From positions 4,920,501-4,984,500 of the forward strand of contig NC_092569.1 in NCBI RefSeq assembly GCF_037975245.1: a stretch of 64,000 nucleotides of DNA, given 5' to 3'. The notes below the pieces were generated by a model. It was given only the letters and a program-made list of their open reading frames with translations. It searched no databases and was not told the DNA's origin. Made by a program: the position numbers and the translations under genes. Of the stretch, positions 41,047 through 59,690 are shown piece by piece (the stretch's first letter is position 1; each line of letters opens with the position of its first letter). The DNA comes from Apostichopus japonicus (lineage: Eukaryota; Echinodermata; Holothuroidea; Aspidochirotida; Stichopodidae).

Positions 41047-41113
41047 ATGACGAAGACGAAAATGCTGCAATCTTTGTTGCTGTTGATATTCTTAGATGTT
41101 GTACAAGCAGGAA
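41047..41113 (+). CDS. FReD gene A exon 1: signal peptide
   Basis: Met-Thr-Lys-Thr-Lys is followed by a Leu-rich core (MLQSLLLLLIFLDVV) and QAG, a plausible cleavage region. The start was chosen because it gives a complete signal peptide and a phase-1 donor GTAAGT, as in gene B exon 1. Confidence 0.8.
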
Positions 41114-57900: not shown

Positions 57901-59690
57901 TTCAACACGCGATTCAACTCGCAACTAAAATCATGCGAATCAGAAAAGTTGCTTCTGATAAGTTGCGCTGATTAGGACATTGCTCTATTACAAATCAACC
58001 CAAATCGACGGCGCAACTTTTATTGCGCAACAAGTTGATACCCGTGTCTAACTACGCGATTCAACCTTCAATTGTATTGCGAGTTGAATCGCGTGTTGAA
58101 TCGCGCAGATGTGACCCGGGCTTAAGACACACAATATATAAACACATTATTGATCAGTGTTAACATATATGTTATCGTTAATAGTAAGACACATCGACAC
58201 AGCTATTAAAATATTCGGAATCCATTTTGTTTTTCAGGAGGGGAATATGTACGTGAACAACATATGCTCTAAACGATATCACTGTACAAGCGACTGGCTC
58301 ATCACAGAAGAAGTCTACCATTGTGAGGACGGTGCCACCTGTATAGAGGAAGACGATGTTTATAAATGTAGCTGTAACCATGGGTACGTAGGAGACGGAA
58401 TCAACTGTGTCCCACAATCGAATCCGAGAGATTGTTACGATCTGTTAAATGCTGGCGTAACAGCTGATGGAGTGTATACGATATACCCTACGGACGATAC
58501 CGAAGTGCAGGTTTACTGTCTGATGACTACCAACGGTGGCGGATGGACTGTGAGTTATTTTCAATTCACAAACAGCGCCATCATTTTTGTTCTATGTGAT
58601 AGTGATGACGATCATGAATATACCCCCCCCCCCAAAAAAAAACAAAAAAAACAGCTCATAAAAAGTAAAAGCTTATTGAAAATTGCGAGACATCACATAA
58701 GTCATGTAAGTTATTTTCACACACACAAGCCTGAAGACTTATGTGTTTGGCTTATCTTTAAGATTTTTATATTTTTTTTTTTAAGATAAGATTTTTAAGA
58801 TTTTAAGTTTTTAAGATTTTAAGTTTTTTAATAGTAAGAATATTAACTTTTTATGAAGTGTGGTATTCACTCATGGCACATACAATGAAAATATTTCCAA
58901 GATTATAGTATATCCTTTCTTATTTTACAACACTTAGATCTTTCAAAGAAGGTCGGGTGCTTCGGTTGATTTCAATCGTGGCTGGAACGACTACAAATAT
59001 GGCTTTGGAGATCCAAACAATGATTATTGGCTAGGCAACGAAATCATACACGCCTTGACGAGTCGCAAATCGTATCAACTACGTATAGCGTTAAGGGATG
59101 CGGGCGGATCGCCAAAATACATTTTGTGTAACAGCTTCAGCCTCGGTAGCGAACAAGACAAGTATAGACTTTATGCAGACGTTCCCTATGGTTTGTATAA
59201 ACGCTATTTAATAATAAGTTTATTTCGAGTGTTAACCAGTATAATAGTGATAAGCTTGCAAGGTCACGAGAATTTTTTTATTTTTTTTTATGTCTAAATT
59301 ATAATTGTGATCATTTTTTGTTATAATCTGCATGCATTGATGATATTTTTTTGCCCTCTTTTCGTTTAACCGGCAGCGTACTCAGAAATTGGCGACATCT
59401 TTTATGAGAACATTGGACAGCAATTTAGTACGTCCGATAGCGACAACGACGGTTCTTGGCTTATAGACTGCGCAAACGAACATCAAGGTGGTTGGTGGTA
59501 CGGACGCGAGTATGAAGATCAAGGCTGTCAAACATTTAGAGACCACGGTACTTGGTACGATTGCGGACTAACGAATCTAAACGGTGGCTTCAATAATTAC
59601 GACTCTGGCGGTATCTTTTGGAGTTCACTCTATGGCAACTACTGCAAAATAGAAAAGACGATGATGATGATACGTCCTTGGTACGATTAA
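51897..59690 (+). CDS. FReD gene B: secreted fibrinogen-related protein with TIL domain
   Basis: Eight exons: 51897-51969, 54359-54424, 55403-55483, 55694-55774, 56549-56757, 58238-58549, 58938-59190 and 59377-59690. Junction phases are 1, 1, 1, 1, 0, 0 and 1, and the frame is open throughout. The order is signal peptide, KLCQF motif, two Thr-rich 27-residue repeats, a TIL domain, TILa/EGF and FReD. Exon 2 has the same length (66 nt), phase and KLC..F...FP pattern as gene A exon 2. The FReD exons match gene A junction for junction, so the two genes arose by tandem duplication. The product is predicted to be secreted; a lectin-like or immune role is inferred from the family only. The two small repeat exons are supported by phase and splice signals, but need transcript proof. 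Confidence 0.82.
54359..54424 (+). CDS. FReD gene B exon 2: 66-nt KLC motif exon
   Basis: The acceptor is TTTTCACAG and the donor GTAAAG, phase 1-1. It codes LCQFSVMFPSNEQFCNSSSK, aligned with LCDFAKKFPCKGKHCLSYEE of gene A exon 2 (42299-42364). It is too short to stand out as an ORF and was found by comparing the paralogues. Confidence 0.78.
55124..56015 (+). repeat. ~290-bp tandem unit containing 81-nt mini-exons (two intact, two decayed)
   Basis: The intact exons 55403-55483 and 55694-55774 are each 81 nt and phase 1-1, with AG acceptors and GT donors. They code LEETTAEFQTVKDLG / SFTTLNPTSVQ and LEETTTEFKPVQDLP / SFTTLNPTSVK. Decayed copies lie at about 55124-55193 (in-frame TAA and TGA) and 55950-56015 (TGA). 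The introns between them share blocks such as GGGACCAAATGGGTGA, so the duplicated unit was exon plus intron. Confidence 0.75.
56215..56360 (-). mobile_element. tRNA-derived SINE, family 2 (copy 2)
   Basis: On the minus strand: A box TAGCCTAGTGGTTAGGGTG, B box GGTTCGAATCC, and 3' end ACTCATCACGATTTTC running into (AT)n at 56187-56214. It matches 18381-18520 over its whole length. A separate (AT)n tract at 56400-56473 lies just beyond its 5' end. Confidence 0.82.
56549..56757 (+). CDS. FReD gene B exon 5: TIL domain
   Basis: It codes a ten-cysteine trypsin-inhibitor-like fold: LCPQNMIFQSNTCATTC, then GCEQTHEEMCICPDGFY, then SCVTQEECGCYIPGVG. It ends in phase 0 before GTAAGT. Gene A keeps only a short Cys-rich end at the matching place. 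TIL domains occur in protease inhibitors and as structural units of mucins and zonadhesins. Here it leads straight into TILa, which favours the structural type. Confidence 0.85.
56773..57006. repeat. (ATC)n microsatellite, about 77 perfect units
   Basis: A 230-bp uninterrupted ATC/TCA run starting about 15 bp after the exon 5 donor (56758). It makes long poly-Ile, poly-His, poly-Asp and poly-Met frames that are not genes. Confidence 0.97.
57879..58122. mobile_element. MITE with 46-47-bp perfect inverted repeats, TAA flanks
   Basis: The left arm starts AGCCCGGGTCACATCTGCGC and runs to about 57924. The right arm (58077-58122) is its exact reverse complement and ends GTGACCCGGGCT. TAA lies on both sides. 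A 3-bp T-A-rich target duplication and long inverted repeats fit PIF/Harbinger non-autonomous elements. It is in gene B's intron between the TIL and TILa exons. The perfect arms suggest recent insertion. Confidence 0.82.
58238..58549 (+). CDS. FReD gene B exon 6: TILa/EGF module and FReD start
   Basis: 104 codons, phase 0-0. It reads GNMYVNNICSKRYHC (TILa), GATCIEEDDVYKCSCNHGYV (EGF-like) and the FReD start RDCYDLLNAGVTADGVYTI, ending TTNGGGWT. It aligns with gene A 45060-45362. Confidence 0.85.
58938..59190 (+). CDS. FReD gene B exon 7: central fibrinogen domain
   Basis: It codes IFQRRSGASVDFNRGWNDY and YGFGDPNNDYWLGNE, then SYQLRIALRD. It ends in phase 1 at a GTTTGT donor, weaker than others in the gene but consistent with gene A. 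Confidence 0.85.
59377..59690 (+). CDS. FReD gene B exon 8: C-terminal fibrinogen domain with insertion
   Basis: It codes FSTSDSDNDGSWLIDCANEH and GGWWYGREYEDQGC, then DCGLTNLNGGF and KTMMMIRPWYD before TAA at 59688-59690. Between GGWWY and the Cys that precedes NLNG there are about 18 extra residues with an extra cysteine, compared with gene A. The acidic calcium-site region is kept (DSDND). Confidence 0.85.

Follow-up and report, generated by a model that had tools for sequence, protein, structure and literature searches.

In the sea cucumber Apostichopus japonicus, fibrinogen-related proteins (FREPs) form the most expanded family of the genome, are mainly clustered at one linkage group (LG02) and have been assigned a proposed role in regeneration (PMC5638244; this and the other papers below are cited from the parts of their text available to us). 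Proteins with a fibrinogen-related domain (FReD) are also numerous in the coelomic-fluid proteome of Holothuria tubulosa (PMC12119288), one FReD gene of H. glaberrima is induced by lipopolysaccharide (PMC2702171), and, according to a review, echinoderms rely on large germline families in place of adaptive immunity (PMC13428168). The FREPs of Biomphalaria glabrata likewise carry a C-terminal FReD; 39 of the 40 genes lie in one 5-Mb cluster, and exchange between copies has been proposed for them (PMC10903818). Here we analyse two predicted genes, g1 and g2, in a 64,000-nucleotide stretch of A. japonicus contig NC_092569.1 (C9:4920501-4984500, referred to below as the window; the assembly comprises 671.6 Mb in 35 contigs). 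Both genes have the same layout: a signal-like start, a short exon with a KLC motif (the KLC exon), a stalk, a Cys-rich neck, an EGF domain and a FReD. We consider it probable that g1 and g2 belong to a very large, germline-diversified family of secreted mosaic lectin-like recognition proteins, most of whose listed copies lie on C9.

Structure of g1 and g2

The gene models, predicted from the DNA, comprise six exons for g1 (41047-47948, forward strand; window positions, as below) and eight for g2 (51897-59690, forward strand). All exons have AG/GT borders, and the joined exons give open frames of 668 codons (668 amino acids) and 462 codons (462 amino acids), respectively. The exons, with the basis for each, are as follows.

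g1, 41047..41113, +: exon 1, start codon and signal-like segment (hydrophobic 11-mer)
g1, 42299..42364, +: exon 2, KLC exon, 66 nt, phase 1-1, KLCDFAKKFPCKGKHCLSYEEE, three Cys (motif scan; no Pfam match at E<=10)
g1, 42496..43529, +: exon 3, Ser/Thr-rich stalk of 11 units and a Cys stretch resembling the C-terminal half of TIL (81-bp tandem repeat, 10.9 copies)
g1, 45060..45362, +: exon 4, TILa-like segment, EGF_3 and FReD start (Pfam, genome matches)
g1, 46455..46722, +: exon 5, FReD middle (Pfam)
g1, 47680..47948, +: exon 6, FReD end with DRDND and GAWWY, stop codon (Pfam, PDB alignment)
g2, 51897..51969, +: exon 1, start codon and signal-like segment (hydropathy)
g2, 54359..54424, +: exon 2, KLC exon, 66 nt, phase 1-1, KLCQFSVMFPSNEQFCNSSSKR, two Cys (motif scan)
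g2, 55403..55483, +: exon 3, 81-nt stalk exon, copy 1 (291-bp tandem repeat)
g2, 55694..55774, +: exon 4, 81-nt stalk exon, copy 2 (291-bp tandem repeat)
g2, 56549..56757, +: exon 5, TIL domain (Pfam TIL 26.7 bits, cut-off 24.5)
g2, 58238..58549, +: exon 6, TILa-like segment, EGF_3 and FReD start (Pfam, in which TILa itself is not listed; genome matches)
g2, 58938..59190, +: exon 7, FReD middle (Pfam)
g2, 59377..59690, +: exon 8, FReD end with DSDND, extra residues before TNLNGG, stop codon (Pfam, PDB alignment)

The exons are entered in phases 1, 1, 0, 0, 1 in g1 and 1, 1, 1, 1, 0, 0, 1 in g2, whose two extra exons lie in the stalk/TIL part. A first-pass annotation of this DNA had stated that the two genes share their junction phases, and they do agree at all shared junctions: phase 1 on both sides of the KLC exon, 0 into the TILa-EGF exon, and 0 then 1 inside the FReD. 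The 66-nt KLC exon that it placed in both genes is likewise borne out, being phase 1-1 in each and above chance in a motif scan. Both frames begin with an N-terminal hydrophobic signal-like segment (the 11-mer of g1 has a mean hydropathy of 2.8), and a hydropathy scan finds no strongly hydrophobic 19-residue stretch after it in either gene.

The Pfam Fibrinogen_C model scores 207.3 bits in g1 and 167.5 bits in g2 (cut-off 22), which places both in the FReD superfamily, and EGF_3 scores 32.2 and 29.6 bits (cut-off 28.5). The same scan lists no Ig family at E<=1, and no collagen, FN3, VWD or C8 match, in either gene. The closest PDB structure to the FReD of g1 is ficolin-1 (195 bits), with DRDND aligned to DQDND; that of g2 is closest to angiopoietin-1 (150 bits), with DSDND aligned to DADND. 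In both cases the last FReD exon aligns to the part of ficolin-1 or angiopoietin-1 that holds DxDND and the WWY or WWF region, and we take its DxDND part to be the expected calcium and acetyl-group ligand site.

The stalk of g1 is built of 11 units, of 26-27 amino acids in all except the last, with 48% Ser plus Thr, and is encoded by an 81-bp minisatellite of 10.9 copies. In g2 the stalk consists of two 27-residue (81-nt) exons on a 291-bp tandem repeat, with 30% Ser plus Thr, and the description 'Thr/Ser repeats' given earlier for both genes suits g1 well and g2 loosely. The Pfam TIL model passes in g2 alone of the pair. The stalk exon of g1 ends in a short Cys-containing segment, spaced C-x5-C-x-C like the end of a TIL, which by eye amounts to about half a TIL, and a full TIL in g1 is rejected. 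TILa (cut-off 27 bits) scores 11.9 bits in g1, or 19.3 as a fragment, and is not listed for g2. The TIL-TILa-EGF recipe proposed in the first-pass annotation thus holds for EGF in both genes and for TIL in g2; it needs correction for the halved TIL of g1, and TILa is under the cut-off in both genes, though relatives pass.

Several repeats accompany g2. A perfect ATC microsatellite of 78 copies (window 56773-57007) begins just 3' of the TIL exon, and a 109-bp tandem repeat of four copies (window 59868-60312) lies 3' of the stop codon. A tRNA-like sequence on the reverse strand (window 56260-56334) lies in a g2 intron and may be a tRNA-derived repeat; a second one is found on the same strand at window 18429-18502.

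Size, distribution and modular make-up of the family

In the genome profile searches the best ~150 candidates were scored per query, and the counts given here are therefore lower bounds (the KLC query, with 32 candidates, fell below that number). The Pfam fibrinogen model gave 169 matches, with the best 150 of 2,730 first-look candidates scored, and three TILa-EGF-FReD exons used as queries gave 150 matches each, from the best 150 of 1,447, 1,439 and 1,562 candidates. The union of these three queries contains at least 387 distinct TILa-EGF-FReD exons (one half-exon duplicate row, at C9:20820066, was dropped), of which 362 are on C9, a chromosome-sized contig that holds 5.6% of the bases. Among the matches listed, the C9 copies are spread over ~0.9 to 35.8 Mb. 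The TIL exon of g2, used as a query in the same way, gave 150 matches, itself included, of which 137 are on C9 (best 150 of 543 candidates).

Run against the same genome, the Pfam TILa model puts 150 of 150 scored candidates over its cut-off, and 59 of the 84 TILa matches on C9 fall inside exons of the TILa-EGF-FReD lists, a comparison made against a partial list. Since these matches pass while g1 and g2 fall below the cut-off, the TILa label is sound for many relatives and weak for the two genes themselves. At C9:34570387-34578653 and 35506364-35509695, several TILa matches lie 1.6-2.8 kb apart on one strand, which suggests genes with repeated TILa units. Separate TILa clusters are also found outside C9 (C15:15.83-15.94 Mb, C1 and C10); these are perhaps large von Willebrand or mucin-type genes and a possible source of the TIL-TILa module.

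The two genes adjoin each other and had been annotated as tandem paralogues. Their adjacency stands, but their TILa-EGF-FReD exons are only 41% identical, whereas copies at C9:14.5 Mb and on C14 are 82-88% identical to the g1 exon. In a tree of 24 TILa-EGF-FReD exons, g1 groups with the loci at C9:14.5 Mb (support 100/99), and g2 stands apart from the g1 group on a long branch whose position is uncertain. The core-exon identity and the tree positions together rule out g1 and g2 as recent tandem duplicates.

The order of the core modules recurs in the genome. Among the matches listed, 96 of 150 TIL exons are followed on the same strand, within 4 kb, by a TILa-EGF-FReD exon, as judged against two of the three listings. 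We also read 30 loci that extend 1.5 kb beyond a TIL exon (L009-L038), and 27 of them show the TILa-EGF-FReD exon; of the remaining three, L010 shows the exon in the longer L039, L009 is g2 itself, with its TILa exon at the locus edge, and L020 (also L044) shows none. The hidden Markov models used to read the loci were partly built from the loci on which they were run, so that these matches arise partly by construction, and the KLC and last-exon models come from few sequences. The core, TIL followed by TILa-EGF-FReD, recurs far more often than the KLC-bearing order.

The part in front of the core differs between loci. In L040, L042 and L043 and in the shorter loci L011-L014, L017 and L036, the first half of a FReD (its exons 1-2) immediately precedes TIL, and no last exon was found to separate the two; at least FReD exon 2 precedes TIL in L029, L046, L048, L049 and L051-L054. 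In L042 (3957-5700) the second exon of the half-FReD ends in phase 1, the phase required by the TIL exon, and a direct in-frame splice, giving a two-FReD layout, is possible. Three further loci (L015, L016 and L041) have a long Ser/Thr-rich, mucin-like frame that is open into TIL. Because KLC plus stalk, half-FReD and Ser/Thr-rich frame are each found before the same core, the family has at least three types of front end.

The KLC exon and the divergence of the last exon

A KLC motif scan of 274,063 bases gave scores of 50-52 for the two window sites and one site in L039, compared with 30 for the next forward site and 33 for the best site on reversed sequence. A genome search with a 22-residue KLC query returned 32 candidates, all 32 of which were scored and matched at E 0.04 or better, g1 included; this list is incomplete, since the KLC exons of g2 and L039 are absent from it. 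The scan scores and the genome matches rule out KLC as a chance resemblance or as a feature of the window only. The KLC exons read mostly encode KLCDFAxKFPCKGxHC in 66 nt with AG...GT flanks. Length variants occur in L065 (69 nt) and L039 (45 nt), a second possible donor is present in L066-L068 and L072, and L073 is without a clear donor. The exon had not been recognised from any family in the first-pass annotation, and Pfam agrees: four KLC segments match none of its families at E<=10, although short queries and the HMMER filters limit the power of this search. Within those limits KLC is rejected as a known Pfam domain, and no Pfam match supports kinship with LDL-receptor class A repeats, whose first half it may resemble.

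Among the matches listed, a TIL or TILa exon follows 18 of the 32 KLC sites (that of g1 among them) at a distance of up to 5 kb, against a mean of 0.53 and a maximum of 3 in 300 trials of random placement. The order KLC, TIL, TILa-EGF is found on one strand in L039 and L065-L069 (the TIL match of L066 is split) and in L070, whose last exon is truncated at the locus boundary; in L072 the partner of KLC lies 3.9 kb onward, beyond the locus. Other arrangements of KLC exons were also observed. L074 and L075 have a second, degenerate KLC-like exon after the first. At two places (C9:23704728 with 23705100, and C9:23978105 with 23978477) a forward-strand KLC exon and a reverse-strand TILa-EGF-FReD exon are ~0.4 kb apart, as local inversions or head-to-head copies, and at C9:12.80-12.91 Mb, on the reverse strand, KLC exons alternate with g1-like core exons at 25-31 kb, as either very long introns or separate genes.

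The last FReD exon diverges faster than the core exon in the relatives of g1. Among the matches listed, 26 g1-like copies reach 65% identity or more with g1 in their TILa-EGF-FReD-start exon, and 22 of these can be paired with a last FReD exon. In all 22 the last exon is less like that of g1 (51-61% identity) than is the TILa-EGF-FReD-start exon (65-88%). The sample for pairing consisted of 35 rows, namely all 26 listed at 65% or above and nine lower ones picked where a last exon was in sight, and 31 of the 35 were paired; the last-exon matches were the best 150 by score, of which 32 rows were used. Two of the pairs are ~7.5 kb apart, and one includes the broken L059. The identities are those of local alignments and the last-exon list is limited by score, so that the correlation of -0.34 obtained from these pairs is to be disregarded. 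Measured against g1, L060 and L061 have a nonsynonymous divergence (dN) of 0.37-0.44 in the last exon, whereas their middle FReD exon reaches 0.07 and that of L059 0.09. Between L060 and L061, 34 of 129 nt differ in the loop, compared with 4 of 123 in the flanking part (Fisher p 1e-7). The ratio of nonsynonymous to synonymous divergence (dN/dS) in the last exon is 0.44, 0.49 and 1.02 for three pairs. Synonymous change is raised too, and exchange between copies, or saturation, therefore fits the divergence of the last exon as well as selection does.

Elsewhere in the window, the forward strand from 332 to 35538 resembles one large cell-surface gene, with consecutive EGF exons, a CUB exon at 30014-30454 and, at 35044-35538, a segment in which a membrane span and a cytoplasmic tail can be made out by eye. 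At window 63629-63844, also on the forward strand, is the start of an SMC-type ATPase gene (AAA_23), presumably SMC6.

Proposed function, rival readings and known systems

In the reading that we favour, a shared core of TIL, TILa, EGF and FReD, with TIL reduced in g1, would be combined with interchangeable modules in front. The last exon of the FReD would hold a calcium-stabilised binding site, whose ligands are probably acetylated sugars or other groups on microbial surfaces; for g1 and g2, calcium-dependent binding of acetyl groups is predicted from the aligned motif. TIL-TILa-EGF would form a disulfide-rich neck, and the stalk, probably glycosylated, would give reach. N-terminal Cys residues link chains in other FReD proteins, and those of the KLC exon may cross-link chains and so raise avidity. 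Variety would arise from germline copy number, from module swapping and from change in the ligand-bearing exon. We infer that the genes are transcribed and that their products are secreted, bind ligands, form multimers and act in defence. A bolder idea, which we put forward as doubtful, is that much of C9 may be a germline recognition repertoire of hundreds of secreted mosaic lectins, with a constant TIL-TILa-EGF neck, a few swappable N-terminal modules and a ligand exon diversified independently by exchange between copies. This would amount to an antibody-like split into constant and variable parts without lymphocytes.

Several observations weigh against the favoured reading. The exon joins of g1 and g2 are predictions from splice signals, frame and recurrence, and to these are added the TILa scores below cut-off in both genes and the lack of a full TIL in g1. 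Among the matches listed, no TIL or TILa exon follows within 5 kb at 14 of the 32 KLC sites; L071, L073 and L074 lack such a partner over the 2.7-3.4 kb covered after KLC, and so does L075 over 5.1 kb, where the fibrinogen exons are instead on the opposite strand. Given these unpartnered sites, KLC may not be tied to the TIL-TILa-EGF-FReD architecture everywhere. The KLC exon is also absent upstream of the close relatives of g1 over the 3.1-6.3 kb covered, a short span that a longer intron may exceed. The genes with KLC are spread over different parts of the tree, and mapping the presence of KLC on it requires three changes, of which at least two are forced by well-supported branches. Only 6 of the 21 inner branches are well supported, however, and permuted labels require no more changes than this in 59 of 500 trials; the tree alone is suggestive and no proof of module exchange. 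The weakly supported tree, together with a list limited to the best scores, makes exchange of modules and of ligand exons less certain. Positive selection as a simple claim is rejected, with mean dN/dS values of 0.20-0.63 in an 11-member group and 0.44-1.02 in the last exon. Finally, the base-by-base comparison of the last exon covers three genes only, and the last FReD exon of L059 has a broken frame.

Among other explanations, the one that survives best, though we regard it as unlikely, is that the family serves tissue repair or the extracellular matrix, its FReDs binding matrix or cell receptors in visceral regeneration, like tenascins and angiopoietins. The closeness of the g2 FReD to angiopoietin-1 in the PDB would agree with such a role, as would the A. 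japonicus genome paper, in which expanded FREP genes, 21 of them in tandem on one scaffold, are up during visceral regeneration (PMC5638244). However, for matrix proteins we would not expect germline copies in the hundreds whose last exon changes fast, and g1 and g2 have no FN3 match.

We give rather less weight to the idea that TIL is a working serine-protease inhibitor that the FReD merely targets, so that microbial proteases or those of the animal's own cascades would be blocked at a surface. In favour of inhibition, the TIL of g2 is above the Pfam cut-off, and TIL is the slowest-changing of three parts compared in the 11-member group, which belongs to another branch (TIL, TILa-EGF and the FReD start have mean dN/dS values of 0.20, 0.47 and 0.63, and dN exceeds dS in 1, 9 and 18 of 55 pairs, respectively). 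However, TIL followed directly by TILa is the pairing of von Willebrand and mucin-type proteins, in which it is structural, and g1 has lost about half of its TIL.

It is a little less probable again that part of the pattern is genomic noise, produced by tandem decay with many pseudogenes or by unpurged haplotypes that inflate the counts. Near-identical match pairs 0.57-0.68 Mb apart at C9 ~34.5-35.8 Mb point to a large duplication or an unpurged haplotype, some of the fibrinogen-model matches contain stops, and the frame of L059 is broken. Stops are found, however, inside just 3, 6 and 4 of the best 150 rows of the three TILa-EGF-FReD exon searches (rows that are perhaps biased to intact copies), mean dN/dS is below 1 in the three parts of the 11-member group, and the listed relatives of g1 are clearly diverged. 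That the KLC exon is a separate gene type, in front of these genes by chance, is very improbable: the unpartnered sites, L075 included, would suit it, but the number of partnered sites far exceeds the random expectation, a 66-nt phase 1-1 KLC exon lies between the signal-like exon and the stalk in both g1 and g2, and the same order is seen in L039 and L065-L070.

If g1 and g2 do belong to a recognition family of this kind, it would be among the largest FReD repertoires known to us, with a visible modular design. With this set of exons one can ask whether copies swap their ligand exons, whether the state of multimerisation depends on the N-terminal module and whether individuals differ in their repertoires. 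The suggestion of the first-pass annotation that g1 and g2 represent a lineage-specific class of secreted recognition molecules is kept in outline, since the order recurs in L039, L065-L069 and L070, although expanded sea cucumber FReD genes are already in print and the KLC link may not hold everywhere. Its undescribed two-gene system gives way to a large family with matches over ~35 Mb of one contig. Our literature search for TIL or TILa joined to a FReD found, in the texts as available, no paper with a TIL-TILa-EGF-FReD protein. The order is not described in the available parts of PMC11401434, PMC11452194 and PMC4224354, and those of PMC13228809, PMC11310086 and PMC10764150 contain nothing on this architecture.

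The expanded FREPs of A. japonicus resemble the g1/g2 family in their FReD and their clustering, and the available text is silent on their domain composition and does not mention TIL, TILa, KLC or a stalk (PMC5638244). Tenascins are alike in having EGF and a C-terminal FReD, and differ in their FN3 domains, for which g1 and g2 have no match; no tenascin-like candidates were found in two sea urchin proteomes searched by the same study (PMC11401434). Ficolins and tachylectin-5 have a FReD with similar DxDND and GAWWY regions, and ficolin-1 is the best PDB match of g1. Unlike ficolins, g1 and g2 lack a collagen match and have a TIL-TILa-EGF neck and a stalk instead. In von Willebrand, zonadhesin and mucin-type proteins TIL is followed by TILa, and this order is also that of the g1/g2 family; the two genes, however, have no VWD or C8 match and end in a C-terminal FReD. 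The Biomphalaria FREPs, finally, carry Ig domains, for which g1 and g2 have no match, and number 40 genes, compared with at least 387 core exons (exons, not genes) in A. japonicus (PMC10903818).

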